36,441 nt of DNA from Prevotellaceae bacterium (lineage in GTDB: Bacteria > Bacteroidota > Bacteroidia > Bacteroidales > Paludibacteraceae), in assembly GCA_031271005.1 (NCBI GenBank), contig JAISWT010000096.1, forward strand, positions 1 to 36,441, in the 5' to 3' direction. The notes under the pieces were generated by a model, which ran no database searches, was not told the origin of the DNA, and worked only from the letters and a program-made list of their open reading frames with translations. Numbering within the stretch: the stretch's first letter is position 1; each line of letters begins with the position of its first letter. The position numbers and the translations under genes were made by a program. Below are positions 16,075-36,038 of the stretch, in pieces.

Positions 16075-16151
16075 TCGGGATATAGTTCAGTCCGGTTAGA
16101 ATGCCTGCTTTGGGAGCAGGAGGTCGTGAGTTCGAATCTCGCTATCCCGAC
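16075..16151 (+). tRNA. tRNA-Pro (anticodon TGG)
   Basis: Acceptor arms TCGGGAT (16075-16081) and ATCCCGA (16144-16150) pair fully, with C as discriminator base. The anticodon arm CCTGC-TTTGGGA-GCAGG gives anticodon TGG. The T arm GTGAG-TTCGAAT-CTCGC is complete. The CCA end is not encoded. The gene is intact although its 3' end is the integration site of the element to the right; a second copy of the final 17 nt lies at 35954-35970. Confidence 0.97.
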
Positions 16152-16219
16152 AAAACCTTTTATAAGATGCTGATAATCAATAGATTATCGGCATTTTGTA
16201 ATTTTAAAAACACACATTT
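16135..16219 (+). repeat. attL: 85-bp direct repeat at the tRNA-Pro 3' end
   Basis: It is identical over 85 nt to 35954-36038. It begins in the T loop of the tRNA, covers the acceptor 3' strand and runs 68 nt further through the terminator hairpin. Just outside, the two copies differ at once (G against A on the left; G against T on the right). The repeat is the crossover region of the neighbouring integrase. Confidence 0.95.
16167..16204 (+). terminator. tRNA-Pro terminator within attL
   Basis: The arms ATGCTGATAATC and GATTATCGGCAT form a 12-bp stem (one G-U) with loop AATA, then TTTTGTAATTTT. An identical hairpin lies in attR at 35986-36013. Confidence 0.75.
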
Positions 16220-16330
16220 GTTTTTGTGCTGCAAAGGAATTGTTTTTGCAAGTGTTTGTATTTTAATGCGTTACAGGCGATTTTTACACACAGTTTACAC
16301 ACAATTAACACACAATTATAAAAAAAAGAG

Positions 16331-17539
16331 ATGCCAAGAAAGAGCAGTATCATAATTTATCCCTTCCTGAATGAGCGTAAGGGCGATTTGTCGAAACAAT
16401 GGTACGTTGAATATCAATACCGCGTGCCAAATATCGACAAGCCTTTTCGCTTTCGGATTTACGAGGGGATAAGGGGGGCATCGGTGGCAGAACGGCGCAA
16501 GGCTGCGAAGAAAATCATTGCGGAAAAAACGGCATGGCTTAAGGCGGGCTTGTATTTGCAGCAGGAAACTAACACCGCGCCGGTGTATGCTGATGAACTT
16601 TCGTATCGACAAGAGGCGCGGCTGTGGAACACCGCAAAGGAGTTTCCGCAGATGAAAAAGTTGATTAACGACTACTTGGAGTTTGTCAAAAAAACCAAAT
16701 CGAAAATATCATTTGCAAATATTCAATCAAAAATGCGCTTGTTTGTTTCGTGGCTTGAAAGTAAAAACTACATCGCAGAGCATCCGAAATTCTTTAAACG
16801 CGCTCATATAATTGATTTCATCAATGATATTGTAGAGAAATACGGGTTCTCAAAAGTTACGGTTAACAAGTATAAAAGTAATGTGCAGTGGCTTTTTGAT
16901 TATTTTGTTGACGCGGAACTGATAGAGAAAAACCCGGTCTATCGGATTTCAAATAACGGCGTGGTAAAGGATTGCGCGGCGCAACCGTTTTCGCTCGATG
17001 AGCGTGAAATGTTGCGCGCGGCAATAGAGCCGGCGAACCCGCAATTGTGGTTAGCGTGCAAGGTGCAATTTTATTGCGCGCTGCGTCCGGGCAATGAATT
17101 GCGCTTGATGAAAATTAAATGGATTGATTTTGATAACAAACAAATCCGCGTGCCGTGCGTGGAAGCAAAAAATAGCAGTACCGAAATTGTAGATATTCCC
17201 GACATCCTTTTTGCTGATTTTGTGCAATGGAAACTTTATACTTATCCTTCCGACTTTTATGTTTTTGGAAAAGAGGGTATACCCTCTGCACAGCACTGGG
17301 GCAAAAATCATTTTCGCATGGAATTTGTGAAGTACAGGGACAAACTGGGTATCCCTGCTAATCGTAAATTTTACAGTTGGAAGCACACAGGAGCAATTTC
17401 TCTGATACAGAACGGCGCGCAACCTTACGACCTGATGGAGCACCTGCGACACAAAGATTTTGCCACAACGGAAAAATATTTGAAAAAGCGCGTTAAGAAC
17501 CCGAAAAAGCGCATTTCTCAATTTGTCAGCAAAATATAA
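16331..17539 (+). CDS. int: Tyrosine recombinase / phage integrase
   Basis: The 402-residue protein should catalyse site-specific integration and excision at the tRNA-Pro att repeat. An N-terminal arm-binding-like part (1-90) and SAM-like core-binding domain (about 105-205, LINDYLEFVKKTKSKISF...) precede the catalytic domain. Catalytic residues visible: Arg252 in ALRPGNELRLM, Lys280, the box-II segment YSWKHTGA (Lys351 where most families have Arg), His374 in HLRHKDFATT, and nucleophile Tyr383 in TEKYL. The YSW(K/R)HTGA form is common in Bacteroidetes integrases. It lies 111 nt inside attL and points into the element, convergent with the late operon. Confidence 0.93.
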   Translation: MPRKSSIIIYPFLNERKGDLSKQWYVEYQYRVPNIDKPFRFRIYEGIRGASVAERRKAAKKIIAEKTAWLKAGLYLQQETNTAPVYADELSYRQEARLWNTAKEFPQMKKLINDYLEFVKKTKSKISFANIQSKMRLFVSWLESKNYIAEHPKFFKRAHIIDFINDIVEKYGFSKVTVNKYKSNVQWLFDYFVDAELIEKNPVYRISNNGVVKDCAAQPFSLDEREMLRAAIEPANPQLWLACKVQFYCALRPGNELRLMKIKWIDFDNKQIRVPCVEAKNSSTEIVDIPDILFADFVQWKLYTYPSDFYVFGKEGIPSAQHWGKNHFRMEFVKYRDKLGIPANRKFYSWKHTGAISLIQNGAQPYDLMEHLRHKDFATTEKYLKKRVKNPKKRISQFVSKI

Positions 17540-17544
17540 AAAAA

Positions 17545-17569
17545 AACGGACTGCGATAAGCAGCCCGTT
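17545..17569 (-). terminator. Terminator of the late operon
   Basis: On the minus strand, the arms AACGG and CCGTT, extended by a GCTG/CAGT pairing, form a hairpin followed by nine Ts. It lies about 50 nt past the stop of the endolysin gene and also right behind the convergent integrase gene. Confidence 0.65.
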
Positions 17570-17617
17570 AAAACAACGGGGTTTCATTTATGTTTCATTT
17601 CGGTATTTGAAAATAAC

Positions 17618-18508
17618 TTAATCTATGTTGCCCTTACTCCCCCTAACAAACTTTTTTATTCTAAAAAAAAGATATATTATACCTGCAATAATTATGCCAA
17701 ATGATATTTTGCCGGTTAAATTAAAAAACTTTTCTGCCTTGTCAGGCGGTTTGTCAGATACTGTATTTTTTTCTATAAATATAGTATCTGTCAGTCTTAC
17801 AGTATCTTTTACTATTTTTTCCTTGTAAAAAATCTGTTTTACTTTTTTTGTGATGAACACAGTATCGCCGCGCCTGTCAGTATAAATGCTGTCAGTAATA
17901 TTAATGTAAATACTGTCTCTGACAGTATGCGCTTTATTGTTGTCATAATTTTCGATAATACTGTTTTCATTTGTCAGAACTTTTTTTTTTGTTGCGCAGC
18001 CGGCAAGCGACACGGCAACAAGCGCGGCAAGGACTATTACCGGCACGATTTTTTTAGCGGTCGGTACTGATGGGCTCGCGCCTTTGAGTTCAAAATGCGG
18101 GTAATCTTTGAATGAAGTCCAGTCGCCGCCCCATGAGATTATCGCGCCCAGTTGCCGCGCCGCCTGCTTTACTGCTTTTGCAATTGCTTTCAGGTATGGT
18201 ATTGCCGCGCTGCTTATTTCGTTGCTTTGCACAACGCCATCTTTATTGATGTCCGGGTACAAATCAACGGCGTAACCGAAGCCGTCAGATTTTATTTGAT
18301 GGGGCGATTTGTTTTTTATGCCATCGCATTGGGTAACTATCGCGCCGGGCTGTGTGCGCCCTTTGGCGTACAGGGCTTGTTGTTGCGCCGTTGTGCGCAC
18401 GCCATCGGTAACGATAAAAGGCGTGTCGCTTATTTCAAGTGCGCGTTTAATTACCTGCACCAGCAGGGGATGCACTCCTTTGAGGTTTTGTTGTGTGCGC
18501 GTGTCCAT
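17618..18508 (-). CDS. M15-type peptidoglycan endopeptidase fused to a lipobox/spanin-like tail
   Basis: The 296-residue protein has two parts. Residues 1-143 form an M15 (VanY/CwlK-like) peptidase: SPHQ with His70, AVD with Asp82 and DYPHFEL with His138 fit the zinc ligands. An EF-hand-type loop DINKDGVVQSNE (86-97) sits inside. Residues 150-171 look like a complete lipoprotein signal (KKIVPVIVLAALVAVSLAGC). A polar, beta-like DSIY/DTVFI/DTIFI repeat region (195-250) and a C-terminal membrane segment (about 267-284) follow. The tail resembles small stand-alone proteins near lysis genes of Bacteroidetes phages. No start codon is seen at the join, so the fusion appears real. It overlaps the upstream gene by 62 nt. 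Role: endolysin, perhaps combined with a membrane-disrupting function (inference). Confidence 0.85.
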   Translation of the reverse strand: MDTRTQQNLKGVHPLLVQVIKRALEISDTPFIVTDGVRTTAQQQALYAKGRTQPGAIVTQCDGIKNKSPHQIKSDGFGYAVDLYPDINKDGVVQSNEISSAAIPYLKAIAKAVKQAARQLGAIISWGGDWTSFKDYPHFELKGASPSVPTAKKIVPVIVLAALVAVSLAGCATKKKVLTNENSIIENYDNNKAHTVRDSIYINITDSIYTDRRGDTVFITKKVKQIFYKEKIVKDTVRLTDTIFIEKNTVSDKPPDKAEKFFNLTGKISFGIIIAGIIYLFFRIKKFVRGSKGNID

Positions 18509-18842
18509 TGTTACGTTTTTTGTAGTCCGAAAATTCGCGTTTCAAGCGGTTATATTTTTCGTTGAGTGTAATATATTTAGTTTGCAGTTTTTGGAAATTG
18601 GTTTTTTCCTTCTGCAACTCGATGCCTAAACTTTCGGCAACCCTTTTGTTTTCGGCAACCTGCCTTTTCAGTTGATTTATTTGCGCCGAAAAATCGCGCA
18701 CAAATTCATCGTAAATATCCTGAATAGCCTTCAGCGTGTCCGCTTTGCGCTTCTTACGCTCAACGAGCAAACCTACAAGCGACGTGCCGCCGATAAGCAG
18801 CGGTAATACCTGTGTTAAAACTACTATTAAAAATTCTGACAT
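18447..18842 (-). CDS. Small membrane-anchored coiled-coil protein, holin/spanin-like
   Basis: The 131-residue protein has one N-terminal membrane segment (about 5-27), a basic stop-transfer stretch (ERKKRKAD), then a long coiled coil (about 35-107) and a basic, Gly/Ala-rich end. One membrane segment plus a coiled coil directed outward, directly before and overlapping an endolysin gene, is the layout of i-spanin or holin-like proteins in phages. The sequence has no motif that proves the role. Confidence 0.75.
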   Translation of the reverse strand: MSEFLIVVLTQVLPLLIGGTSLVGLLVERKKRKADTLKAIQDIYDEFVRDFSAQINQLKRQVAENKRVAESLGIELQKEKTNFQKLQTKYITLNEKYNRLKREFSDYKKRNNGHAHTTKPQRSASPAGAGN

Positions 18843-18984: not shown

Positions 18985-19560
18985 TTATTTAAAATGTACT
19001 GTGCAGATATAGTTATCCCTACCAAAGGGGTGGTTCCTTACTACACGGAATTGGTCTCCAATCATTACTCCTTTTTTGCCGTTTTTTTCGTACAGCACTT
19101 TAAGCCTGAACTGCACATATTTTTTGTTACGGTTTTTTGATTGCGTAAAAACAAATTCTACAAACTTTCCTGCTTGATTAAAACTGCAGCCAATAAACTG
19201 TTGCCAGTTGCCAATAATAACCGAAGCCTCATTAAAAAGAGATTTCGGCACATCGTATCGGGTAATAAAGCGTGGGAAATGCGAGCGCACCGGCTCACAG
19301 AAGCCGGGTTGTATTGTATGGTATTTTCTGTAATTCCCCTCCATTAATTTGTAGGCTCTGTGCTTTTTTTTCTTTTGTTCGAGCGCTATTGTAACGCTGT
19401 CAAACAGGTGGCGGTTCAGAATTGTTGCCTTAAGTTTGGTTGCGTAATACGGCGCTTCAGGCGTGTTGATGTTCTCATAACCAGCGGCTGACAGTTTGAG
19501 TACCGGCAGTTCTGCCGACGTGTTTGGTGATGTTGCACAATATGGAATAATATTAGCCAT
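18985..19560 (-). CDS. Unknown late-operon protein
   Basis: The 191-residue soluble-looking protein has no signal peptide or membrane segment. It is basic with many aromatics, contains a Lys-rich stretch (EQKKKKH) near residue 60, and has a beta-rich second half (YVQFRLKVLYEKNGKKGVMIGDQFRVV). It starts 1 nt after the upstream gene, showing tight coupling. No family is recognised. Position among late genes suggests a virion or assembly protein. The following 142 nt to the holin-like gene hold no convincing gene. Confidence 0.75.
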   Translation of the reverse strand: MANIIPYCATSPNTSAELPVLKLSAAGYENINTPEAPYYATKLKATILNRHLFDSVTIALEQKKKKHRAYKLMEGNYRKYHTIQPGFCEPVRSHFPRFITRYDVPKSLFNEASVIIGNWQQFIGCSFNQAGKFVEFVFTQSKNRNKKYVQFRLKVLYEKNGKKGVMIGDQFRVVRNHPFGRDNYICTVHFK

Positions 19561-19561: not shown

Positions 19562-19816
19562 TTATTTTAAATAATTTTTTATTACTAAAAGTTTGTTTAC
19601 CGTGTTTTGCGTGTTGAAATAGAAAGGTATGGGGCTGTCTATAACAACGCCGGGATGGTTTTGCCATGCGAACTGCTCGCCCGGCTGCAATACTATATTA
19701 TCAAGTATAGTAACAGTTCCATCGCTCATGTTGCGAAAATCAATGCTGTTAGTGCGCCCATCGGGTGGTATTGTTCCGTTGCTACTTTTAATTTCTGTGT
19801 AAATTGTTGCTTTCAT
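19562..19816 (-). CDS. Small beta-rich late protein
   Basis: The 84-residue protein is predicted by eye to be nearly all beta strand, with Gly/Pro/Asn turns (IPPDGRTNSI, LQPGEQFAWQNHPGV) and a hydrophobic C-terminal stretch. No signal peptide. It could be a minor capsid, spike-base or cement protein; no homolog is recognised. It lies 15 nt after the transglycosylase gene and 1 nt before the next. Confidence 0.75.
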   Translation of the reverse strand: MKATIYTEIKSSNGTIPPDGRTNSIDFRNMSDGTVTILDNIVLQPGEQFAWQNHPGVVIDSPIPFYFNTQNTVNKLLVIKNYLK

Positions 19817-19831: not shown

Positions 19832-20446
19832 TTATGAGAAAAAAAAACATGCGGCGCCAAACGTGCCGTATAGAACTCGTTTGTCGATTTTTAAAATATT
19901 CCCTTTGGGGCTGCTGTCGTAAGGGTTAAAGGTTGCGTAATAGCGCGGGTTTGTAACGCCGGCAGCGATAAATTTTTTGTCTACATATTCTTCAAATTCG
20001 GCAATGGTAATTTTGCCGTCCTTGTTAATGTCCATACCTGCATTTAACGCGGCGATACGGCTTGCGCTCAATGTCGAGGTTTGAAAAACCCAGTTTTGAG
20101 GCTTGCCCAGTGAAATAGGAAAAAATGTTATTTTATATAAATCATACGCGGATTTTATTTTGCCGGTATATTTTTTGAAATATTTATAAACCCAGTCCAT
20201 TTGCGCCACGTTGGAGAGCGCGCGCAGGCTTTCGGTTGTAGTTCCTAATGCTTTCGCCGTTGCCGGCATGAACTGTATCAAGCCCGAAGCGCCGGTACTG
20301 CTGTTATATGCAGCGGGGTTCAGGCGGCTCTCTGCATACATTACCATCATTAACCAGTCCGGGTTGATTGCCAGTTTTTGGGCAACGCTTTCAACCTTTG
20401 CCTTGAAACTTTCCACATTATTTTTTATATAACTTTCAAACAGCAT
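19832..20446 (-). CDS. Lytic transglycosylase with EF-hand loop
   Basis: The 204-residue protein has an SLT (goose-lysozyme-type) fold signature: catalytic Glu39 in YAESRLNP, GASGLIQFMPATA at 52-64, and a Tyr/Lys-rich helix (YKYFKKYTGKIKSAYDLY). An EF-hand loop DINKDGKITIAE (139-150) follows, as in EF-hand-bearing lytic transglycosylases, then a hydrophobic C-terminal end (GAACFFFS). It would cut the glycan strands of peptidoglycan. It lies among presumed structural genes and apart from the endolysin, which suggests a virion-associated enzyme that opens the wall at entry. Confidence 0.9.
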   Translation of the reverse strand: MLFESYIKNNVESFKAKVESVAQKLAINPDWLMMVMYAESRLNPAAYNSSTGASGLIQFMPATAKALGTTTESLRALSNVAQMDWVYKYFKKYTGKIKSAYDLYKITFFPISLGKPQNWVFQTSTLSASRIAALNAGMDINKDGKITIAEFEEYVDKKFIAAGVTNPRYYATFNPYDSSPKGNILKIDKRVLYGTFGAACFFFS

Positions 20447-21337: not shown

Positions 21338-22237
21338 TTATTGAGTTAAGCCCAAATTTTTTGCTACCGGACGCGCCAATAGCAGAACGGCAACGCCGCC
21401 GCCAATGTACAAATATTTTTTCCACTTTTCTTTATTTGCTAAATCCGTCAGGTTCTTTATTTGCGCTGATGCGCCGGCTGCCTTCTCATTCCATTCCTTT
21501 ACAATTTGGTTATAGAGGTCTGTCGGCAGGGCTTTTTGTAACCGCTGCCGCAAATCATCGGACATCATAAAATCGGATTTAGCGGCGAGGTAATGCCTCT
21601 TTGTCAATGACACGCTAATAGCAACAGCAGCCCCTACCAACACCGTAACAACTATAACCAGCGGCAACCACGCAATACCTATATATGCTTTCGGGTTGCT
21701 CATAACGGCTTCCAAATGCGAGTTGAAAGGAAACGAGCCGCTGCCTTCTTCATATCCTATATTTGGAATACTTTTTATTTCAGCATTTCGCGCGGCAAGG
21801 CGTTGCGCCAGTTCTGTCATCTGCTGTATCGACCCGGCAGATGTTGTTTTAGAATATTCTTTTGCCCGATGAACAATGTAACCGCAAAGTAAAAGATTGT
21901 CTAAAATTGCCCGGTTGTATTCGATGCTGTCGGCAAGGTAATTTTGTGCTTTGATGCCATCGGCCGAGCCATGCTGCGTCAGGTAGTTCGATTGCGAGTT
22001 GCCCTTTGTGGATACCATACACAGCCATATCTCCCGACCGTCATCTACAAAACTTTGAAAAAATAAATCATCGTTATATTCATAAAACTCACCGGTAAAG
22101 GTAACAGTTTGTCCTTTTTTTATGGTGAAAATCCTTCTGTTGCGATTTTGCACCATATCCTCGTAAGTGGGATAAAAGTTTATCTGCATGTTTCGCGCGG
22201 CGACCATTTTTACATTTACCCATTGTTGTGACGTCAT
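21338..22237 (-). CDS. Two-pass membrane late protein with SH3-like N terminus
   Basis: The 299-residue protein has an N-terminal beta-rich domain (about 1-80, with IFTIKKGQTVTFTGEFYEYND and EIWLCMVS), a helical middle, a strong membrane segment at about 187-209 (AWLPLVIVVTVLVGAAVAISVSL) and a second at about 275-290. The loop between them (210-270) is charged and helical. It overlaps its upstream neighbour by 4 nt (ATGA). No family is recognised; likely a membrane-embedded virion component (inference). Confidence 0.75.
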   Translation of the reverse strand: MTSQQWVNVKMVAARNMQINFYPTYEDMVQNRNRRIFTIKKGQTVTFTGEFYEYNDDLFFQSFVDDGREIWLCMVSTKGNSQSNYLTQHGSADGIKAQNYLADSIEYNRAILDNLLLCGYIVHRAKEYSKTTSAGSIQQMTELAQRLAARNAEIKSIPNIGYEEGSGSFPFNSHLEAVMSNPKAYIGIAWLPLVIVVTVLVGAAVAISVSLTKRHYLAAKSDFMMSDDLRQRLQKALPTDLYNQIVKEWNEKAAGASAQIKNLTDLANKEKWKKYLYIGGGVAVLLLARPVAKNLGLTQ

Positions 22238-23004
22238 GATAACATTCCTTTCAACTTTTGCGGTGAAAACATCTTTTTAACCTGTTGGTAGGTCATTCCC
22301 ATAAATTTTTTGCCTGAGTGCGCAAACTCAGCAAAGGTTTCAATAAATTGATAATATTGCGGGTCTGCCTGCTCCCACTTTTCCAGCGCGGACAATAGCC
22401 GGGAGTCGGTATCGCTACCTTCTGCGGCGGCAGCGGCGTGCGTCCCATTAACTTTTGCGTCAAAGTTTTCAATCCCTGCTATTGCTATTGGCGGCGCGGG
22501 CGTGCCTGTATATTTCTGCACAAGCCCGGACACTGCCGCGCTGATGAGCGGCATGTATTCGTTCACGCGCTCCCAGACCTTCGCCTTGGCGATGTCTGCA
22601 CGTTCATTTTCTTTGCTTAAAAATTCAACTTCCAATTTTAAATCCGCATTGTCGCGTTCTATCAGGGCGTATTTTATGCGCCTGTCAACTTCATCTTCAC
22701 TGACGCCCTGTATTTGCGGCACGCCGCTGATGAGCGCGGAGTTCTGATTATTTTGTAAATTGGAAAATTCAAAATAAAACAAGCCGGTAGTTTGTTTCTT
22801 TGCCGTGCTGCCTTTAATAATTATTCTTCCGAAAGGAGAATAAGACATTACTTTTTTAAATTTGTCTAAATTCTCCTCAAATGGAAGGTCATCAACGCTT
22901 TCAAAAAGTTTTTTGTTTTGCCCGTCAGAAGTGTGCGCCGAAAAATATTGTATGTTATTTTCGCGGAGCCACTCCACTGCGTTATCTAAATTTGCAAAGG
23001 TCAT
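22234..23004 (-). CDS. Late protein with central coiled coil
   Basis: The 256-residue protein has an N-terminal domain (1-95), a highly charged helical or coiled-coil stretch (about 101-147), an Ala/Pro/Gly-rich hydrophobic middle (about 150-200) and a helical C terminus. No signal peptide. It overlaps both neighbours by 4 nt (ATGA type), showing strong translational coupling with the beta-rich gene upstream and the membrane protein downstream. It could be a scaffold or a spike-base protein; neither can be shown from the sequence. Confidence 0.75.
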   Translation of the reverse strand: MTFANLDNAVEWLRENNIQYFSAHTSDGQNKKLFESVDDLPFEENLDKFKKVMSYSPFGRIIIKGSTAKKQTTGLFYFEFSNLQNNQNSALISGVPQIQGVSEDEVDRRIKYALIERDNADLKLEVEFLSKENERADIAKAKVWERVNEYMPLISAAVSGLVQKYTGTPAPPIAIAGIENFDAKVNGTHAAAAAEGSDTDSRLLSALEKWEQADPQYYQFIETFAEFAHSGKKFMGMTYQQVKKMFSPQKLKGMLS

Positions 23005-23768
23005 CTTTTTTCAATTAAAGCGTTAAAAAATAATGTCTTATCAAGAATCACGTTGTTACAGTTTTCGATGTACGAGTTACGAAAATCGAACATTATATTT
23101 TCCATATAAAAATAATAATGCCTGCTGTGCTGCCTCAATAAAGAGAGCGGCACGTTTGAAAAGAACTGTACATTGTCTTTTTGCAGCGTGAGAAACATTC
23201 CTGAATATTCGCCGCTGCTGTACAGCGGTTTTTTGTCGGGCGACCATTGCGCATCACACATAAGGATATTGCGGTAGCGCGCGGTAGACAGTTCGTTGTT
23301 CTCAAAAAAGTAGGTTCTACGTCCTTGCAGGTCTATTTGAAAGGACGTTATATCTGTTTCGGTTGTCCTGTCCGCGTGGAGCGCGGCAGGTTCTTCATAG
23401 AATATTACAAAATACTTTGCCTTGCCGTCCAAGTTTGCGCCGTTGTAGACCTCAAAAAACGACCTCTCAAAATCTATTTCGCGGCGTATCTGCGGAACGT
23501 TCCCAAAATCGAAGCCGCGCAACTCTGTGGACTCCACGCTGTCGAGTATGTATTTGTTTGTGTTTTTTTCGCACAGCGATACATACGCGCTTTGATTTTC
23601 GTACGCATAATTATTTGGCGTTTTACTTGCGCCGAAATTGTTATGCTGCATAATCCAAAGGATTTTTTTTCCTTCTAATTGTTGCAAGCGCGGAAAACTG
23701 TATTTTGTGCGCCCGGTTTGCATAGGTATTTCAACTCCCATTGCTCCGGAAAATGTATTTTTTTTCAT
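23001..23768 (-). CDS. Beta-rich late protein, capsid candidate A
   Basis: The 255-residue protein has no membrane segment or signal peptide. It is rich in Tyr, Phe and Asn with many strand-turn alternations. Near its N terminus it reads YSFPRLQQLEGKKILWI, similar in form to the neighbour's CYFNDSAYSGKKVTGIFF. Size and composition suit a jelly-roll capsid or penton protein of a tailless phage. This is an inference; no database family is recognised. It is separated by 6 nt from the upstream 262-residue protein of similar character. Confidence 0.75.
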   Translation of the reverse strand: MKKNTFSGAMGVEIPMQTGRTKYSFPRLQQLEGKKILWIMQHNNFGASKTPNNYAYENQSAYVSLCEKNTNKYILDSVESTELRGFDFGNVPQIRREIDFERSFFEVYNGANLDGKAKYFVIFYEEPAALHADRTTETDITSFQIDLQGRRTYFFENNELSTARYRNILMCDAQWSPDKKPLYSSGEYSGMFLTLQKDNVQFFSNVPLSLLRQHSRHYYFYMENIMFDFRNSYIENCNNVILDKTLFFNALIEKR

Positions 23769-23774: not shown

Positions 23775-24563
23775 TTAATAATAAAATGTAAGGTCTAATT
23801 TTATGCTGCCGTCTCCGAAAGGGTCTTCCGGCAAATTCGTATCCCCAATGTATCGCATTTTTATCAGCGATTTTTCAGCATCGATTTTTAGATTTTGAAA
23901 CATTGTTTCTTCTTTTGGCAGCAGCGCTCCGGACTGGATATACATGTTTTCGATAAAAAATTTATCGGTAATAAGCCACACATATATATTGTGAAACGCA
24001 GAGTTGCTGCCGCGCACTCGAATATCTTTTACTCTTTTCCCTTTTAAAAAATTACCTGTTATTTCAGATAATTTTTTATCGACAATATAAGTATTGTCGG
24101 TTTGCTTTTCAAAAATTGCGCTGAAAGTTTTCACGCCGTTAATATCAGTACGGCTTACGTGTTCTACGGGCGCGGTTTCGTAAATCACGCACATTAGCAA
24201 GTTCACCGTTTGCTCTACTTGATATTCTATATAACTCAAATCAGGATTTATTTCAAAGTTCAGCGGAATAAATCCGGGTCTTTGCCCGTCGGCAAAGTTT
24301 TTAATCTGATAATCCGACACAAAATTTTGCACGCGCAAATTACCCGCTTTATCTGCAAGCGTTAAATAGAAATGCAGCGAGGCGGGCAACTCTAAAATCC
24401 GGGCGGGGTCTTTGTACAGCGGAGACGCGCTGTAACCGTTGCCCTGATAAAAGAATATACCGGTAACTTTTTTTCCGGAGTATGCGCTGTCGTTAAAATA
24501 ACAGCGGTGACTGTCCGGGCTTAATGTAAGTTGTATGCACGTAAGATTTTGGATTATCATCAT
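23775..24563 (-). CDS. Beta-rich late protein, capsid candidate B
   Basis: The 262-residue protein is soluble-looking and beta-rich throughout, without signal peptide. After about 15 residues it has a YF-x(5-6)-GKK(V)-x-GI stretch shared in form with the next gene, then long strands (LHFYLTLADKAGNLRV, YIEYQVEQTVNLLMCVIYE), and it ends in a strand SIKLDLTFYY. A hairpin (24604-24635) precedes it in the mRNA, and the 85-nt leader is the longest inside this part of the operon, which might mean separate control of a highly made protein. It is one of two best guesses for the major capsid protein. Confidence 0.75.
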   Translation of the reverse strand: MMIIQNLTCIQLTLSPDSHRCYFNDSAYSGKKVTGIFFYQGNGYSASPLYKDPARILELPASLHFYLTLADKAGNLRVQNFVSDYQIKNFADGQRPGFIPLNFEINPDLSYIEYQVEQTVNLLMCVIYETAPVEHVSRTDINGVKTFSAIFEKQTDNTYIVDKKLSEITGNFLKGKRVKDIRVRGSNSAFHNIYVWLITDKFFIENMYIQSGALLPKEETMFQNLKIDAEKSLIKMRYIGDTNLPEDPFGDGSIKLDLTFYY

Positions 24564-24648: not shown

Positions 24649-25311
24649 TCAAGAGTTGAAAGAAGTGCCGCGCATTTCGGTACTGGAGCCGCCGTTAACC
24701 AAAAAGCCGTGAAACTCTACAACGGCGAATGCCCTGTATAGCAGCGTTACGGAAATATTCGAGGTTGACAGTACAGGAAAATCCAGAATTAAGGTCTGGT
24801 CTTTTTGCCCTACGAGGTTAATTTTTTCCGGCAGTTCAACAACGCCATCAGTTGCTTCAATCTTTTGCGTTAACATCTCTGCATCCGGCGCCTGGCGTTC
24901 GAGCCTGAAATAAGAGAGCGGCAGGGCTTCGAGCGTCAGTTCGCTGCCGGTTTTCAACTGGAGCGTGCCGTTCCATATCGCTTCCGCGTCCAAGTTGAGA
25001 AAAACACCTTTTTGCGTTTCGGTGGGGTGCGTAAGCGGATAAGTAAGAAGACGCCCGCTGCCGGTTTTTGCCGCTTCAATCATTACGCCAAAGCGGATTG
25101 CGTACGCCTGAAACAAATCCTGCGTTCTCAAATATCTTTCTGTAACATGCTTTACAGAGGTTTCAAGCGCAAGCTGTTTTTGATAGTGTTGCCCGTTGGC
25201 AGTGAGTTCAAAAACGTAACGCAATTTGGAAGTTTGCGGGTACAGCCCTTTGGAGGCGTATTTTGTTTGCAAAGCCTCGTACAATTTTCTACGATATTCA
25301 ATATTTTTCAT
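24649..25311 (-). CDS. Late protein, beta-rich C-terminal half, unknown
   Basis: The 220-residue protein has a helical basic N terminus (MKNIEYRRKLYEALQTKYA) and a beta-rich rest with turns such as LQLKTGSELTLEALPLSYFRL and an extended C-terminal half (about 140-220). No membrane segment. It lies next to the two capsid candidates and may be a third structural protein. No family is recognised. Confidence 0.75.
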   Translation of the reverse strand: MKNIEYRRKLYEALQTKYASKGLYPQTSKLRYVFELTANGQHYQKQLALETSVKHVTERYLRTQDLFQAYAIRFGVMIEAAKTGSGRLLTYPLTHPTETQKGVFLNLDAEAIWNGTLQLKTGSELTLEALPLSYFRLERQAPDAEMLTQKIEATDGVVELPEKINLVGQKDQTLILDFPVLSTSNISVTLLYRAFAVVEFHGFLVNGGSSTEMRGTSFNS

Positions 25312-25816: not shown

Positions 25817-26062
25817 TTATTTACTGCCTGTTTTTTTCCGTCTGATAGAATCGACAGAAAGTTTTGTTTCCTGAACTTTTTTTACAAGTTTTTTTCGGGA
25901 GTTTTCCTTACTTATTACCGCTCTTACATCCTTTGTCCATTTTTGCGCCCGCTTCAAAAATCCTTTCAATTCGCTTTCGGGCGCGGTTAATCTGGGCTTT
26001 GGAGGCGGGCTTGGAAACTTCAGTTTAACCGAAGTTGTCGTTGCTTTTCTTTTTGTTGCCAT
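25817..26062 (-). CDS. Small very basic protein
   Basis: The 81-residue protein is strongly basic (Lys/Arg close to a third of residues), with a Pro-rich patch KFPSPPPKPRL near residue 15-25 and no hydrophobic core large enough for a membrane segment. It may bind the genome inside the particle or serve as an internal scaffold; this is a guess from composition. It lies in the late operon, 39 nt after the Ca-loop membrane protein. Confidence 0.65.
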   Translation of the reverse strand: MATKRKATTTSVKLKFPSPPPKPRLTAPESELKGFLKRAQKWTKDVRAVISKENSRKKLVKKVQETKLSVDSIRRKKTGSK

Positions 26063-28230: not shown

Positions 28231-29658
28231 TTAAAACGGCACATCTTCATCTGTTTGCGCCTCTAACCACATCATTTTTTTTTCGGAAACAGGCATCGCT
28301 CTTACTAACAGGTTGAGAGCAATGTCTCTTGATGGTGCTGCCTTTATTGCTTCGTAAGCGGCGTCTCTGATAGCTAACGCTTCGCCTGTGTTGTCAACAT
28401 CGTAATCTGTAATATTTTCTGCGTACTTTGCGGGGCTTATTCCGTTTTTTTGGTCTATAATACCCTTATAATATTTTTTTTCGGGCGTGTTGTAGTTCCG
28501 CGAGCGGAAATTTTTTCCGGTGGCAGTGTATCCAAAAATATCCGCTATTCCTTCCTGCGTGCCAACTTTTGCCCATGTGAATTTTAAGCCGTTTGCTATA
28601 TTATATAAGGTAATTATATATGCCTGGTCGGCATCTTTGGCATATTCGGTTTGCCCGAAAGTTTCGTGATATTGGTTAAAAATTTGTTTCGGGGTAATCA
28701 ATTCTCCCATCTGATTATCAATATCATCAAAATGTACTATTGCGTTGTTTGCGGCTTTCGAGGCGCGGATAGCTTTTCGCAGGTTTTTTTTTGAGCTGAA
28801 AATCCAGTTATTCAGGTCTGCCGCCTCCTGTATTGGTTCGGTAACTGCAAACGTACCCGCGCCGTCCGAAAACACGTCATAATTAATATTACCTTGTTTG
28901 GCAATAAGTTTGTCGGCGGTATCTTTGAGTCGGCGTATACCTTCTGCGTTGTGTCCTAAATCGCTTAACGCTCCAATGCGTGTATATGCTTGCGCCCTGT
29001 TCCAGTAGTTCATCGCGGCGGTCTCCGCATCCCAGCCTGTGCGCTTCAATGTTTCGTACATTCTGCTTTCGGCAGGGGTGAAGTTGTAATCATTGTTTTT
29101 GAGTTTTCGGAGCACCTGCTTTGCAAAGCCTTGCGTTTGCTTTAAAGAGCGCAAATATTTATTGCCGGTAACGCCGGCGGGTTTGACGGTAACGTAGTCG
29201 GGTGTGACGGGGTGCGCTGCCAGTTCTCCAACATACATTTCGACAGAGAGTGGCAGCGGTCGTCCTGAAATTAACGCGCTGCCTTGCAGTCCTATTTTTG
29301 TGCCAAGCAGGTCGCCCGAACTGATGATATACCAAATCTTATGTGCAACGCTGTTAATATCAACGCGGACATAGATAGGAGCGGGGCTGGTTTTTCTGCC
29401 GGGTAAGTGGAAATTTGTTATAAATGTTTTGCCAATTTGCTCGCCGTTAATTGAAATGTTTAATGTCAATTTTTCTATCAGCAAACTTACAATTGTGGGG
29501 TTCTTTACATTGACGGTAATAACGAGGTCAATGTATTTTGCTGTGGCGGCGGCAAATTGCAGACGTGATACTGCAAATGTCAGCGTTTTCCACGCTGACA
29601 TAAGCGGCAAATACCACGCTGCAACCAAACCAACACCAATTAATAAAATTTTACGCAT
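28231..29658 (-). CDS. LEA14-like domain protein with N-terminal membrane anchor, first gene of late operon
   Basis: The 475-residue protein starts with a membrane segment (MRKILLIGVGLVAAWYLPLM). Residues about 28-150 form a beta-rich domain with VNVKNPTIVSLLIEKLTLNISINGEQIG, the pattern of LEA14/LEA2-type (WHy) domains, which have an immunoglobulin-like fold. The remaining roughly 320 residues are helical with many Asn/Lys/Ala and contain no recognised motif. LEA14-like domains with a lipid or membrane anchor exist in bacteria; their presence at the head of a phage late operon is unusual. The gene follows a -7 box at 29685-29692 by 26 nt. Confidence 0.75.
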   Translation of the reverse strand: MRKILLIGVGLVAAWYLPLMSAWKTLTFAVSRLQFAAATAKYIDLVITVNVKNPTIVSLLIEKLTLNISINGEQIGKTFITNFHLPGRKTSPAPIYVRVDINSVAHKIWYIISSGDLLGTKIGLQGSALISGRPLPLSVEMYVGELAAHPVTPDYVTVKPAGVTGNKYLRSLKQTQGFAKQVLRKLKNNDYNFTPAESRMYETLKRTGWDAETAAMNYWNRAQAYTRIGALSDLGHNAEGIRRLKDTADKLIAKQGNINYDVFSDGAGTFAVTEPIQEAADLNNWIFSSKKNLRKAIRASKAANNAIVHFDDIDNQMGELITPKQIFNQYHETFGQTEYAKDADQAYIITLYNIANGLKFTWAKVGTQEGIADIFGYTATGKNFRSRNYNTPEKKYYKGIIDQKNGISPAKYAENITDYDVDNTGEALAIRDAAYEAIKAAPSRDIALNLLVRAMPVSEKKMMWLEAQTDEDVPF

Positions 29659-29788: not shown

Positions 29789-29977
29789 CTAATTAATCAA
29801 TATATTATAGAAACGGTAAAAATCCTGCTTTGATACGTATTGCGGTTTTTTTTTGCCTTGTGCAATAAAAACGTGCACAATCATGCGGCCGGCAGTTGAC
29901 TTGCTGCAATTGCAAAGGCTCATTACTTCCTTCACTCTGATTTTTGCGTATTTATTTTCTTTAATAATGCTTTCCAT
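29789..29977 (-). CDS. Small HTH protein, possible late regulator
   Basis: The 62-residue protein contains a helix-turn-helix-like stretch (VKEVMSLCNCSKSTAGRMIVHV, about 16-37), where SKSTAGRMI has the look of a recognition helix, followed by a short beta-like end (KPQYVSKQDFYRFY). Similar small HTH proteins in phages act as excisionases or late activators. It lies directly upstream of the phased repeats and late promoter and reads in the same direction. Control of late genes is an inference from position. Confidence 0.6.
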   Translation of the reverse strand: MESIIKENKYAKIRVKEVMSLCNCSKSTAGRMIVHVFIAQGKKKPQYVSKQDFYRFYNILIN

Positions 29978-30077: not shown

Positions 30078-30220
30078 GTGAAAAAATTATTAATTAATAG
30101 TGAATAGTGAATAATGGGTGGGGCGCGATTGGTTGCGATTTTAGTTAGAAATAATTAATTGTTCATTGTCAATTGTCAATTTAAAATTTAGTATAAAAAA
30201 TAAAAAAAAAAAAAAGTAGT
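30078..30220. other. Gene-free AT-rich stretch left of the iterons
   Basis: No gene is visible. It holds short direct repeats (AATAGTGAATAGTGAATAATG; GTCAATTGTCAATT) and an A-tract of about 14 (30202-30215). Together with the following iterons and hairpins it makes a 737-nt gene-free gap (29978-30714). Confidence 0.5.
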
Positions 30221-30496
30221 ATTTCGTAAGAAGTTGAGAAGTTGCGCATCTAAATATTTATCAATCAATAATTTATCAACTTCTTACTCTTTGTTTGAGT
30301 GAGAAGTTGTGAGAAGTTGAGAAGTGAAAGCGTGAGAAGTTTTACCCTACTTTTGAGAAGTTAAGATGTATGTTTGAGAAGTTGTAAGAAGTGATTTTAT
30401 ACTGTATTTTAGTTTTTTTTTTTTTTATATATTTGAAAATAAAAGAGTTAGATAAAATAATGTGATACGCTAACTTCTCAACTTCTTACGAAATTC
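30221..30496. other. Iteron-rich presumed replication origin
   Basis: About twelve copies of an 8-9 nt unit GAGAAGTT(G) or AAGAAGTT(G) lie in 275 bp, nine in one direction and three reversed. The two ends are near-perfect inverted copies: ATTTCGTAAGAAGTTGAGAA at 30221-30240 and its complement ending at 30495. Between them lie AT-rich stretches including a run of 16 T (30411-30426). Repeated short sites plus AT-rich DNA next to primase and helicase genes is the usual layout of a replication origin. Which protein binds the repeats is not known. Confidence 0.7.
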
Positions 30497-30532
30497 TAAA
30501 AATGGGAGAGAGGGGGGGGTAAAAAAAACGGC

Positions 30533-30714: not shown

Positions 30715-32280
30715 TTATTTCTTTTTGCGCTGATTTTTGCATTTCTGCATTGTCAGACTGTCGGGGAATATATAAAACTCATCTACGGTACTGCGAAATT
30801 CGGAATAGGGGAATGATTTTTTGCGGCAGTAAATCCGTACCCAGTCCCAAAAGTAGTTCATGGGTTTTTTATACACAGCCAAAGTTTCAGAATATTTTGC
30901 AGTGTAAAGGGCATAAAATTCGCGCTTTTCAAACATCGCCATTGAACGTTTTTCTGTGTAGGGCGCAATTTGTTCTTCAAACCAGAACACAAAATCCTCG
31001 CAGGTAGTTTCCATAATAACGCGGTCGCTGTAGTTCACTTCTGACACTTCTGTTACTCCGTTTTGCATGTATTCATCTGCGCAGCGTATCATAAAAGAGT
31101 AAAACTCATCCCAGTCTGTAGCAGTCCATTCGTTGCCAAAGAACCATTTAAACTCATCGGAAGGTCTAAGAATGTCGCTGTAATAATTTGACAGTTCAAA
31201 AATTTTTGCACGTCTGCGGTCGCTGGGGTTGTCAAAATTAGGAGCAAAATTTGTAGATATATAAAATTTTACTTGCTGATTGAATTTGTCAGCGTACATT
31301 TTGCGAACTCCCACGCCTTCGCTTATGTCTGTTATAAACGTGTCGGGTTTGATTTTTTTCGGCAAATCATCAATATTTATTATTTGCGTATTCACATCAA
31401 CATCACTGTAACGCCGTTCATTTGTTTTATCAAAATCTACGCCATCAATTTTAACAAAAGTGGTATCTTTGTTCGTGTCGCGGTTGCACATCTGCCGCAA
31501 GGCTTTTGAAATAATTCCTTTGCCGGTTCCGCCGGCGCGTTCTGAAAATTCAATATTTATATCAGTTACATATATTGCGAATAAATCATAATCGAAATAA
31601 TTGTGCAGCAAATATCCAACCATTGACATTAACGATTTTTTGCGCTCCGGGTCGTTGCCTGTTATTTTTTCAAAAAAAAGTTCAAAATCGCCACGTGAAG
31701 CGGCAAAATTAAAATCGCGGTTAATTATATTGTTTTCCCAAACTTTTTTTGTTAAATTACTGTATTCCAACTTTTCGGGCTTTGCTCTCTTTTGAAGCCT
31801 GACGACTGTATTGTTGAAATAAAAATATTTTTCCTGCGCGGCGTCCTTTTGAAACTCCAAATCGGAAATTGACGGTAAAAAATAAAAGGTAACTTTATTA
31901 GACAGGTTGCTGCTGTTATTTATCAGCGCGTCAATTATTTTTTGGCTGTCGATGTCAAATGTTATCATGGTTTCGGCATCAATGGCGATTGAAACCTGAC
32001 GCGGCGGCAAATTTTTGATGTAATTAACCAGTTCGGAAAAAATCACATCATCGGTAACAGGTACTGCGCGGTTATCTTTTATATGAATGTAGGAAGCATT
32101 GCGCCCGTTTATGTAATATTTGCAAAAATTCAAGCGTATAAGCAAGCGTATAAATTGAGGTTTGGTAATATTAAGTTTGAGATTTTTTTTGTCGTTTTCT
32201 TTAATTAGGGCATAATTATAGAAATCGTGCAGTGTCTCATTTTTTTCCACATCGGTTATTTCTGTTATATATTTTTCCAT
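30715..32280 (-). CDS. SF3/D5-like replicative helicase
   Basis: The 521-residue protein has Walker A AGGTGKG (249-255), Walker B IINIDD (300-305) and motif C FYISTNF (339-345), the superfamily 3 helicase set, as in phage and plasmid primase-helicases with a DUF5906-type core. The N-terminal 190 residues are unrecognised; the C terminus (about 420-521) may hold a winged helix. It should unwind the element's DNA and probably works with the primase and PriCT-like protein encoded just upstream. A relic of a related gene is found at 520-664. It is the only protein of the element in which a clear Walker A motif is seen. Confidence 0.92.
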   Translation of the reverse strand: MEKYITEITDVEKNETLHDFYNYALIKENDKKNLKLNITKPQFIRLLIRLNFCKYYINGRNASYIHIKDNRAVPVTDDVIFSELVNYIKNLPPRQVSIAIDAETMITFDIDSQKIIDALINNSSNLSNKVTFYFLPSISDLEFQKDAAQEKYFYFNNTVVRLQKRAKPEKLEYSNLTKKVWENNIINRDFNFAASRGDFELFFEKITGNDPERKKSLMSMVGYLLHNYFDYDLFAIYVTDINIEFSERAGGTGKGIISKALRQMCNRDTNKDTTFVKIDGVDFDKTNERRYSDVDVNTQIINIDDLPKKIKPDTFITDISEGVGVRKMYADKFNQQVKFYISTNFAPNFDNPSDRRRAKIFELSNYYSDILRPSDEFKWFFGNEWTATDWDEFYSFMIRCADEYMQNGVTEVSEVNYSDRVIMETTCEDFVFWFEEQIAPYTEKRSMAMFEKREFYALYTAKYSETLAVYKKPMNYFWDWVRIYCRKKSFPYSEFRSTVDEFYIFPDSLTMQKCKNQRKKK

Positions 32281-32304: not shown

Positions 32305-32658
32305 TTAAATGCTTATTCCTGCATTTTTTGCGAGGAAAAAAAATGTTGAAATCGTTATACCACTTTTATTGCGCAGGCAGCGCGTATATTGTTTATCGGT
32401 TTGGGTTGCGCTGTATTTGTGATAGTATCTACTTGCGCGCTGAAAATATTCGCGCCCGCGCTCTCCATATTCCGAAGCAATTGCAAAGCCCATATTTCGC
32501 CACTGTTCATAAGTTGGCGCAATGTCGAGCGCGCGATATTCTATTGTCCGCAACACTTTTTCAAACGGGGGTTGAGGAGTTAATGCAGAAATTTTATATA
32601 CAACTTCCTTTGCAGGTTGTTTAACGTCCGGTATCCATTCTTGCGGGTTAAATTTCAT
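32305..32658 (-). CDS. PriCT-2-like primase-associated protein
   Basis: The 117-residue protein carries the pattern ALDIAPTYEQWRNMGFAIASEYGERGREYFQRASRYYHKY and ends in TFFFLAKNAGI. This matches the PriCT-2 domain that normally sits at the C terminus of AEP primases or in front of the helicase. Here it is a separate gene overlapping the primase gene by 4 nt and lying 24 nt before the helicase gene. Primase, PriCT and helicase therefore form three consecutive proteins rather than one fused protein. Confidence 0.82.
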   Translation of the reverse strand: MKFNPQEWIPDVKQPAKEVVYKISALTPQPPFEKVLRTIEYRALDIAPTYEQWRNMGFAIASEYGERGREYFQRASRYYHKYSATQTDKQYTRCLRNKSGITISTFFFLAKNAGISI

Positions 32659-33380
32659 TTTCGGTATAAATTAGGATTAATATATGCTTGCGCATCGTGA
32701 CAGAGAAAACAAGCGCGGGCAACGTCGCTGCCTGATTTGTCAATTGTTTTTCCGTATGTATTCAAAATATAGTGATAAATTCCATCGAACCAAACGCGGT
32801 GCGAATAGCGTGTGAGGTCGATATTGATAAGCCACTTCAGCCCATCGCCCGACGGCGAGCGAAACATTAAAAGCGTCTCAAAAAAACGGTCTTTGAGTAA
32901 ATTTGCCTTCAATTCATTTATTGCTGAAATATCGCCCACGTGGTCGAAATCTATTACAATTAATCCGCTGTGCCGCTCTAATTTCTGCGCGTTGCGCTCA
33001 CTGAACACGCCCGAAAAGCAACAATAAGGTAAACATTTTGATTTTATTTCCTTACTTTGCGTCAAATTTTCGCGCAAATAATCTGTGCATTGTTTTATTT
33101 CGGCATGATGTGTAATAAGTTCGTAAGCATCAGAGAGGCGCATTGTACGGCATGGAAAAATATTAGTTATTGGCGCATCGAAGCCGGAGAACTCCGCGGC
33201 GGCAAAGGGAAACGCATCACGCTCTGACGCTGCGACAATTTGATTTTCGCGCGCGTTGACAAAATCAATAATTGCATTGATAATTTGCTCGTTTTCGCGC
33301 GCGTAATCAGTTATACCTTTACGCTGTGCATAATGATTATTGCGCCGTTGTAATATTTTTATCGCCGTTTCAATGGTCAT
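32655..33380 (-). CDS. AEP-type primase, BT4734/VirE-N-like
   Basis: The 241-residue protein shows the archaeo-eukaryotic primase fold of the BT4734 group common in Bacteroidetes mobile elements: HSGLIVIDFDH with Asp144 and Asp146 (motif I), FRSPSGDGLKWLI (174-186, motif II region) and DKSGSDVARACFLCHD (214-229, motif III region). It would make primers for the element's replication. A helical region (1-110) precedes the catalytic part. It overlaps the PriCT gene by 4 nt. Confidence 0.87.
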   Translation of the reverse strand: MTIETAIKILQRRNNHYAQRKGITDYARENEQIINAIIDFVNARENQIVAASERDAFPFAAAEFSGFDAPITNIFPCRTMRLSDAYELITHHAEIKQCTDYLRENLTQSKEIKSKCLPYCCFSGVFSERNAQKLERHSGLIVIDFDHVGDISAINELKANLLKDRFFETLLMFRSPSGDGLKWLINIDLTRYSHRVWFDGIYHYILNTYGKTIDKSGSDVARACFLCHDAQAYINPNLYRK

Positions 33381-34675: not shown

Positions 34676-34755
34676 TTATTTTGATTGTTAAAAATAATTA
34701 ATTTGATTATAAAATAAGTTGTATAACATCTTAAATAATTATAAATTAGTTCTTT

Positions 34756-35079
34756 ATGAAACAGGAAAAAAAACATATTGGAAAAATAATTGAAAGCGCT
34801 TTTAATCAAAGCGGTATGACACGTGCAGAATTTGCGCGAAAAGTTGGAATTTACAATCAAAATGTGCAAAGATTGTTTGATAGTGAAGATTGCAGCGTAA
34901 TCAGATTGATTAATATAAGTCAAGCAACACAGACCGATTTTTCGTATCTATTTGAAGTAAAGGATACGAATATAGATGTACCGAAAATTTTTGTGCAAAT
35001 TGAAGTTAATGAAAAAAACAAAAATGAGGTCGCTAAATTGATAAATAACAAAGGATTGTATGATTTAATAAAAAAATAA
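34756..35079 (+). CDS. Xre-family repressor (CI-like)
   Basis: The 107-residue protein has an HTH of the Xre/CI type at about 19-48: GMTRAEFARKVGIYNQNVQRLFDSEDCSVIRLINIS, with the turn at KVGI. The C-terminal part (about 65-107) is short and acidic-basic with no peptidase domain, so it is not a LexA-type self-cleaving repressor. It is transcribed away from the early operon and would keep the lytic genes off. It is followed at 12 nt by a secreted protein and then a lipoprotein in the same direction. Confidence 0.82.
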   Translation: MKQEKKHIGKIIESAFNQSGMTRAEFARKVGIYNQNVQRLFDSEDCSVIRLINISQATQTDFSYLFEVKDTNIDVPKIFVQIEVNEKNKNEVAKLINNKGLYDLIKK

Positions 35080-35091
35080 AACTTAAAAAAT

Positions 35092-35556
35092 ATGAAGTCA
35101 AAAAAACATTTTTTATTATGTATGTTTGTTTTTGCCTCTGTTTGCCTTTCAGCGCAAACAACATTAGAGGAATACAACTACATAACCAAAGGGTACAAAA
35201 TCCAGATGGAAAGCGGGCTGGATATGAAAAAAGGTTACTATTTGCAACCTTTGAAATCTGTAACATACAACGCTAACAGAGTGTCAAGAACATTTAATTT
35301 TAAAAATCTTGTACGAATACAGGGTGAAAAAATTTGCGCTATTATGGTTGAATATATCAAAAGTGAGCAAAATATACATAACCGCTGGGAAAACACAGTT
35401 ACCTATTTTTGCATACCTGCGAAAAATTCTTCTACTGAAATATGGGAATTAGCAAAAAAGCAAAATACATCAATTCAGAAAGATTTGGCTATTGCGTATT
35501 CGTGGGCATTGACTTTATTAATTTCCGATGTTTATTTAGAAAATTGTAAATTATAA
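35092..35556 (+). CDS. Secreted protein, presumed lysogenic conversion gene
   Basis: The 154-residue protein has a clear signal peptide (MKSKKHFLLCMFVFASVCLSAQ, cleaved after SAQ). The mature part has mixed strands and helices, with a beta-rich first half (YKIQMESGLD, GYYLQPLKSVTYN) and a helical end. No family is recognised. It lies 12 nt behind the repressor gene, so it is probably expressed in the prophage state. Periplasmic or surface proteins in this place often protect the lysogen from related phages; here that is a guess. Confidence 0.78.
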   Translation: MKSKKHFLLCMFVFASVCLSAQTTLEEYNYITKGYKIQMESGLDMKKGYYLQPLKSVTYNANRVSRTFNFKNLVRIQGEKICAIMVEYIKSEQNIHNRWENTVTYFCIPAKNSSTEIWELAKKQNTSIQKDLAIAYSWALTLLISDVYLENCKL

Positions 35557-35569
35557 TAATTAAAAAAAT

Positions 35570-35887
35570 ATGAAAAAAGTTATTTTAATAGCGGCTTTAG
35601 CGCTGATGGGTTTGCCCTCGTGCCGTGATTATATTACGCCTGATTGCGAAAGAAACAGGACTTTTCAGTTAGAAGTAACAAACGGCTCAAATGACACTTA
35701 TGCTATTTATGCAAATAATAAGTTTCAAACAAACATTGCGGGAAAGAAAAAAGTTTTACTGACTTTGCCTGCCGGCTTTATCAAAATAAATGCAGTACAG
35801 GTGAACGGTTATGTCCTGTATCCAACTGAAAAATACTGGGAAGCGACCGTAACCGAATGCGACAATTTATATTTAGTAGTACCTTAA
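35570..35887 (+). CDS. Small lipoprotein, presumed lysogenic conversion gene
   Basis: The 105-residue protein has a lipoprotein signal (MKKVILIAALALMGLPSC, Cys18). The mature part is beta-rich (RTFQLEVTNGSNDTYAIYANNKF, KKVLLTLPAGFIKINAVQVNG) with one further Cys near residue 23 and one near 99. No family is recognised. It lies 13 nt behind the secreted protein and is the last gene before attR. Probably co-expressed with the repressor. Confidence 0.78.
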   Translation: MKKVILIAALALMGLPSCRDYITPDCERNRTFQLEVTNGSNDTYAIYANNKFQTNIAGKKKVLLTLPAGFIKINAVQVNGYVLYPTEKYWEATVTECDNLYLVVP

Positions 35888-35953
35888 TAAAAAACACATA
35901 AACTACAGAAAAATAACAAACTGATAATCAGCGCCGGTAGAAAAACGAGTAAA

Positions 35954-36038
35954 AATCTCGCTATCCCGACAAAACCTTTTATAAGATGCTGATAATCAAT
36001 AGATTATCGGCATTTTGTAATTTTAAAAACACACATTT
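35954..36038 (+). repeat. attR: 85-bp direct repeat
   Basis: It is identical to 16135-16219, including the last 17 nt of tRNA-Pro and the terminator hairpin (35986-36013). It marks the right end of the element. The rest of the tRNA gene is not present here. Confidence 0.95.

Follow-up and report, generated by a model that had tools for sequence, protein, structure and literature searches.

FLiP, PhiCjT23 and Cellulophaga phi48:2 are tailless phages of Bacteroidota with single-stranded DNA and a double jelly-roll fold in the capsid; FLiP and PhiCjT23 contain lipid, PhiCjT23 is temperate and FLiP has a transglycosylase (PMC5894146, PMC9719478, PMC13269007). SSIP-1, a membrane-containing phage of Salisaeta, is an orphan described as having hardly any similarity to anything in GenBank (PMC6356626) and is grouped with the vertical single-barrel viruses (PMC4958249). 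Sulfolobus polyhedral virus 1 (SPV1, Portogloboviridae) has about 20 kb of DNA and a membrane under its shell (PMC8459092), and both SPV1 and FLiP are stated to lack a packaging ATPase (PMC8812541). Non-tailed temperate phages of Bacteroidales are practically undescribed. Here, we analysed a stretch of 36,441 nucleotides from a Prevotellaceae bacterium (contig JAISWT010000096.1 of assembly GCA_031271005.1), referred to as the window, which contains an element at positions 16135-36038. This element is an integrated Bacteroidales virus whose shell is almost certainly tailless and made of jelly-roll capsid proteins; it is very likely a temperate, tailless and probably membrane-containing phage of an unclassified SSIP-1-like lineage.

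The element belongs to a widespread, essentially undescribed virus group. In the open-licence literature we found the FLiP group, the PhiCjT23 prophages and SSIP-1 and no description of the group itself, and an earlier description elsewhere is possible. The group provides relatives for the orphan SSIP-1, including loci in three named strains, and is a further jelly-roll lineage in which no packaging ATPase is recognisable.

Predicted capsid folds and candidate virion genes of the late operon

The long late operon of the element runs on the minus strand from 29977 to 17618. Its genes g16 to g3 are:

28231-29658, minus strand: g16, LEA_2 domain protein with an N-terminal membrane segment (PF03168, 3.3e-7)
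26683-28227, minus strand: g15, transglutaminase-like virion protein with a C-terminal membrane segment (PF01841, 3.7e-8; hmmsearch to SSIP-1 structural gp34, 2.7e-19)
26102-26686, minus strand: g14, Ca-loop-like protein with a C-terminal membrane segment, read from the sequence
25817-26062, minus strand: g13, 81 amino acids (aa), net charge +19
25353-25784, minus strand: g12, small glycine/alanine-rich protein; best SSIP-1 match is the structural gp44 (weak)
24649-25311, minus strand: g11, predicted single jelly-roll capsid protein, candidate major capsid protein (AlphaFold2; Foldseek, SPV1 6oj0_A; BFVD, I1ZBH9)
23775-24563, minus strand: g10, paralogue of g9
23001-23768, minus strand: g9, predicted double jelly-roll capsid protein with an internal duplication (AlphaFold2, predicted local distance difference test (pLDDT) 89.5; Foldseek; hhalign of the halves, P 1.6e-17)
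22234-23004, minus strand: g8, conserved late protein, present also in a distant lineage (locus L056)
21338-22237, minus strand: g7, conserved late protein with a membrane segment
20450-21322, minus strand: g6, late protein with a membrane segment, conserved in part of the family
19832-20446, minus strand: g5, lytic transglycosylase with an EF-hand-like loop (PF01464, 3.4e-11)
19562-19816, minus strand: g4, conserved small late protein; best of the 57 SSIP-1 proteins is gp48 (weak)
18985-19560, minus strand: g3, unconserved, without family or relatives (Pfam/PHROG scans, synteny of relatives); a receptor-binding protein would be a guess

The capsid assignment builds on AlphaFold2 models computed from 32 aligned sequences for g11 (pLDDT 81, predicted template modelling score (pTM) 0.81) and from 22 g9/g10 sequences for g9 (pLDDT 89.5, pTM 0.89). 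g11 is predicted to fold as a single jelly roll. Its top PDB match in Foldseek is the SPV1 capsid chain 6oj0_A (E 9.6e-5, probability 1.00, TM-score 0.46/0.54), and the further matches are mostly viral jelly-roll capsid proteins, including P23-77 VP16/VP17 and SH1 chains. g9 models as a double jelly roll, with PNGase F, itself a double jelly roll (E 2.3e-4), ranked above the PM2 major capsid protein P2, which is among the top five (E 3.7e-3, probability 0.80, TM-score 0.28), and other double jelly-roll capsids lower in the list. Because these TM-scores are low, the fold class of g9 rests on the match list together with the strand order, which is repeated in both halves of the model with a short helix at the same place. 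In double jelly-roll capsid proteins, helices follow the F and F' strands, and PNGase F is without them (PMC8812541). By sequence, the g9 and g11 profiles had no significant match in the PDB, so that their relation to known capsids is one of folds.

The sequence-only reading of this window had noted by eye that tailed-phage families are absent, and this now holds as a profile result: with matches admitted up to E 1, no credible terminase, portal, HK97 capsid, tail tube or tape-measure family appeared when the integrase and the late and replication proteins were scanned against Pfam and PHROGs. The families found were integrase, endolysin, transglycosylase, transglutaminase-like, LEA_2 and primase; the candidate virion proteins g8-g12 and g15 match no PHROG family significantly. 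It is highly improbable that the element is a tailed phage with morphogenesis genes beyond the reach of profiles. Many small late proteins have no family and g5 resembles tail-hub lysozyme domains, but the largest late product has 514 aa, a large terminase, portal or tape-measure-sized gene is absent, and both the jelly-roll models and the presence of the core module in genomes of about 12.5 kb speak against a tail. The sole strong tail-labelled match, g5 to the baseplate hub phrog_196, spans just the lysozyme-like domain, and g2 owes its weak tape-measure/scaffold matches (E 0.005 or worse) to its coiled coil. What the sequence-only reading had named as contrary evidence did not turn up, as no terminase, portal or tail protein was found and both modelled proteins (g11 and g9) fold capsid-like.

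Besides, its other statements on the late operon were borne out: the beta-rich proteins are present (220, 255 and 262 aa), the lytic transglycosylase is g5, and where at least five late proteins with membrane segments had been counted, we found seven (g1, g2, g6, g7, g14, g15, g16). The transglutaminase (26683-28227) and the LEA_2 domain (28231-29658) had been missed. An FtsK/HerA packaging ATPase had no Pfam/PHROG match, and a motif search of all element proteins gave no Walker A motif in the late proteins. A rolling-circle Rep was likewise not found in the Pfam/PHROG scans; a primase/helicase is encoded instead.

Probable kinship with SSIP-1 and comparison with known tailless viruses

All 57 SSIP-1 proteins were compared with the element profiles using hmmsearch and hhalign. 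The g15 profile picks the structural gp34 (hmmsearch 2.7e-19, hhalign P 1e-12), and gp44, gp46 and gp48 are the best of the 57 for g12, g11 and g4, each weakly (P about 0.01); these three are clustered in SSIP-1 in the same order as g12, g11 and g4 in the element. In BFVD, the top match of the g11 model is I1ZBH9 (211 aa), and the neighbouring accession I1ZBI0 (256 aa) stands at rank 15. SSIP-1 gp46 and gp47 are adjacent, annotated as structural and 211 and 256 residues long, and we therefore take I1ZBH9 as gp46. No similarity was detected between gp47 and g9. SSIP-1 further shares a transglycosylase-like protein (gp54) and an integrase, and its capsid genes are also without PHROG families. 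It differs in its circular genome of 43.8 kb, its hypersaline host, additional structural genes including a 2319-aa protein, and the AAA_25 ATPase gp40, of which no counterpart was found in the window; the circular relative L104 does have an AAA_25 protein. Because the g15/gp34 link is strong but g12, g11 and g4 are weak singly and AAA_25 is absent in the window, the element appears SSIP-1-related, not a proven member, with capsid homology mostly below sequence-level proof. SSIP-1 is the group's one recognisable isolate.

Several points weigh against our interpretation. Only g15/gp34 is a strong sequence link, those of g11, g12 and g4 being weak, and seven other element profiles picked non-corresponding SSIP-1 proteins. 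The identity of I1ZBH9 with gp46 is deduced from length and neighbour, and the match of g9 to PM2 P2 is modest (TM-score 0.28) and outranked by PNGase F.

The closest solved structure to g11 is that of SPV1, and g11 shares with Portogloboviridae a single jelly-roll capsid protein like VP4 (Foldseek probability 1.00). The other Portogloboviridae traits, an archaeal host and no replication proteins, differ from this Bacteroidales genome with its encoded primase/helicase. SPV1 is presumably nonlytic, its replication proteins have not been identified, and an integrase, a primase or a pair of double jelly-roll proteins is not described for it in the sources used.

The FLiP group differs by its single-stranded DNA, rolling-circle Rep, one double-jelly-roll capsid protein and genomes of 7.6-9.2 kb (PhiCjT23, FLiP), and the PhiCjT23-like prophages by Xer/dif integration. 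Kinship with FLiP or phi48:2 was considered and set aside: neither a sequence nor a replication match was found, and the g9 profile has no PDB sequence match. PM2 (Corticoviridae) and the Helvetiavirae (P23-77, SH1) resemble the element in having jelly-roll capsids around a membrane and in the fold matches to g9 (PM2 P2) and g11 (VP16/VP17, SH1), whereas they encode FtsK/HerA-family ATPases. Kinship with PM2, FLiP or tectiviruses, which the sequence-only reading had cited for their similar content, found no support in sequence: searches for a packaging ATPase and a rolling-circle Rep gave none, and SSIP-1 and unclassified circular viruses of 12-14 kb stand nearest to the element. The suggestion by the same reading of a distinct group fared better, as no PHROG family covers the capsid genes and tblastn gave no homologue of g11 or g15 in 50,697 phage records. 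The Charybdis elements (4.6 kb, marine archaea, other genes) were considered and rejected (PMC12324425).

An arrangement as in the Helvetiavirae, with g11 and the g9 family forming mixed capsomers of two capsid proteins, is possible though doubtful. In its favour, the genes of the two jelly rolls are neighbours, the g11 matches include P23-77 VP16/VP17 and SH1 chains, and the literature places SSIP-1 with the vertical single-barrel viruses (PMC4958249). Against this, the FtsK/HerA packaging ATPase of that type was not found in the element and the g9 family matches double jelly rolls, not VP16/VP17.

Relatives and the duplicated jelly-roll domain

Within the bacterial family, the late module was found in 10 further genomes (11/300 including the window's own), in a conserved order with some gaps (g17-g16-g15-g12-g11-g10-g9-g8-g7-g6-g5-g4) and in several with an integrase beyond the module. 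g11 matched 6 of 393 sampled genomes of the order (one weakly), and only the window's own genome among 396 sampled from the phylum. The named relatives on GTDB contigs come from metagenome bins assigned to Paludibacter, Porphyromonadaceae, Prevotellaceae and Chitinophagaceae, and one is labelled Omnitrophota, which is possibly misbinned.

An IMG/VR scan with the transglutaminase alignment gave 46 contigs, 15 of which are 12.1-13.9 kb long with terminal repeats of 110-127 bp, as expected of circular genomes. These circular viruses carry homologues of g16, g15, g12, g11, g9 and g4 in the same cyclic order, and their g9 homologue has about 135 residues and one domain, half of g9. Searching IMG/VR with g11 gave 80 contigs, overlapping partly with the transglutaminase set, and nothing was found with the window's g15 or g16 singly or with close g9 relatives. 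The tblastn search of the phage records used g11 and g15 from both the window and L104 and gave no match; SSIP-1 is too distant to be reached pairwise.

The late module has a third branch, farther away, in varied Bacteroidota (L048-L069). Here, 19 further Bacteroidota loci, L056 among them, carry g16 and g15 homologues; loci of Puia dinghuensis CGMCC 1.15448, Nafulsella turpanensis ZLM-10 and Aquimarina sp. RZ0 are among these. In L056, the one distant locus examined, proteins matching g12 (P 1.7e-4), g11 (3.1e-6) and g8 (8.4e-7) follow g16/g15 in the same order, and relatives of these three proteins occur in most of the 19 loci. At the g9 position, L056 has proteins of 127 and 182 residues whose similarity to g9 is undetectable.

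This distribution bears on two further explanations. We consider it unlikely that the major capsid proteins are g9 and g10, with g11 in a penton or minor role, which would place the element with the double-jelly-roll PM2/FLiP-like type. The double jelly-roll model of g9 has PM2 P2 as its best viral match, g9 and g10 (255/262 aa) are near P2 in length (269 residues in chain 2vvf_A), and complete elements of the temperate branch almost always have the two as a pair. However, the g9 counterpart of the circular viruses has one domain, g11 is recognisable in the distant L056 and g9 is not, and neither a rolling-circle Rep nor an FtsK-type ATPase was found. A domesticated or defective remnant, or a gene-transfer-like particle, is improbable. 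The element is single-copy in one draft genome, and even an intact-looking prophage can be inactive; yet the reading frames of all core genes are open, their order is shared with distant relatives, the integrase is intact, the att repeats are exact and the same module occurs in circular viral genomes.

The N and C halves of g9/g10 match each other in profile comparison (hhalign, P 1.6e-17), and the 135-residue single-domain family matches both the N half (9e-17) and the C half (9e-15), with unrelated families as controls at 0.17 or worse. g9 and g10 are paralogues, each internally duplicated. In an unrooted domain tree, g9N and g10N group together, as do g9C and g10C, and the proteins with one domain stand as another set of their own (support 91/83 at the two main forks and 90/67 for the singles). 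In the g11 tree, elements with a two-domain g9 lie on one side of a branch (99/99), with long branches meeting nearby. The simplest reading of these sequences is that one domain doubled within the gene and the whole gene then doubled into g9 and g10. As the tree is unrooted and the singles branch separately beside the N and C domains, the single form may instead have arisen by an early truncation of the double one. L043 and L071 have a one-domain g9 plus g8 (L043 also g5), L071 on a 58-kb viral contig; they are possible intermediates between circular viruses and temperate elements.

We lean slightly towards a new order- or class-level group of Bacteroidota viruses that joins SSIP-1, temperate prophages and small circular viruses, and in which one jelly-roll gene doubled internally and then as a gene (g9/g10) and g11 stayed single. 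If so, the group preserves a natural trace of one way in which double jelly-roll capsid proteins can come about. The older view, in which these derive from single jelly rolls by duplication, met with a counter-proposal of cellular origin in 2022 (PMC8812541). The present group has one-domain and two-domain forms of the same jelly-roll protein and allows a duplication of this kind to be examined inside a single group of viruses.

Integration, replication and lysis genes

Inside the att repeats, a plus-strand integrase, the minus-strand late operon and the primase/helicase region are followed, on the plus strand in the right part, by a helix-turn-helix (HTH) repressor and then two small signal-bearing genes. 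The features are:

16076-16151, plus strand: tRNA-Pro (TGG), integration target (ARAGORN, Rfam)
16135-16219, no strand: attL, exact direct repeat of 85 bp that overlaps tRNA-Pro at its 3' end
16331-17539, plus strand: tyrosine integrase (PF00589, 8.8e-9; phrog_1, 2.8e-32)
17618-18508, minus strand: g1, M15 peptidase endolysin with two membrane segments (PF13539, 5e-12; phrog_465, 1.9e-44)
18447-18842, minus strand: g2, one membrane segment and a coiled coil, possible holin/spanin
29789-29977, minus strand: g17, small protein upstream of the late genes, conserved in relatives, possible regulator
30217-30498, no strand: iteron-like direct and inverted copies of GTAAGAAGTTGAGAAGT between late and replication genes, putative origin
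30715-32280, minus strand: g18, SF3-like helicase / primase C-terminal part (phrog_28855, 4.9e-34; phrog_6088 primase, 8.9e-6)
32305-32658, minus strand: g19, PriCT_2 primase domain (PF08707, 1.3e-15)
32655-33380, minus strand: g20, BT4734-like primase N-terminal domain (PF08800, 2.4e-23)
34756-35079, plus strand: g25, HTH repressor (phrog_2439 regulator, 5.5e-6)
35092-35887, plus strand: g26 and g27, proteins with N-terminal signal-like segments, possible lysogenic-conversion genes
35954-36038, no strand: attR, exact 85-bp repeat

The two exact 85-bp repeats are the element ends, and the coordinates given by the sequence-only reading were exact. Most of the temperate-phage equipment it listed has been recovered as well: integrase, att repeats, repressor-like HTH protein, primase parts, iteron-like repeats and M15 endolysin. 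The exceptions are the helicase, as g18 has no Pfam match and is called superfamily 3 (SF3)-like from its PHROG matches and from the sequence by eye, and the holin, for which g2 is a tentative candidate. In g1, a lipobox-like membrane segment is fused to the endolysin, followed by a further C-terminal membrane tail; g1 is possibly an endolysin-spanin fusion.

From these sequence features and the modelled folds we infer the form of the particle, its membrane, packaging and the roles of its proteins. Lysogeny would be kept by the HTH repressor, and upon induction the integrase would excise the genome, to be replicated from the iteron region by the primase and the SF3-like helicase. The shell would consist of g11 capsomers, with g9/g10 as further capsomers or vertex proteins, and surround a membrane vesicle carrying g6, g7 and g14-g16. 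DNA uptake would proceed without a packaging ATPase, as for SPV1 and FLiP (PMC8812541), and the basic g13, a candidate genome-condensing protein, perhaps condenses the genome. During entry, the transglutaminase-like protein and the transglycosylase would open the envelope, and the M15 endolysin would finally lyse the host. Between its g15 and g12 homologues, L104 encodes a histone-like protein of 199 aa with lysine/alanine repeats (6596-7195), likewise a candidate genome-condensing protein.

Among the relatives, the integrase lies beside a tRNA-Leu in four and a tRNA-Thr in one, the latter with its own 30-bp repeats about 20 kb apart; integration into tRNA genes therefore appears common and the size of about 20 kb recurs. 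A search of the relatives for direct terminal repeats gave them only in G026. The search for an empty site gave an intact tRNA-Pro (TGG) with a similar downstream region in G002, a candidate empty site. Other tRNA-Pro genes with a similar downstream hairpin region are found in the host and its congeners (G000:C71, G000:C244, G001:C49, G002:C179), and the att core therefore reaches into conserved post-tRNA sequence. Directly right of attR lies a high-copy interspersed repeat (36039-36410), also present at 10920-11106 and containing a 55-nt inverted repeat at 36217-36331; attR with the right flank has 97 matches in the host genome and few in two congeners.

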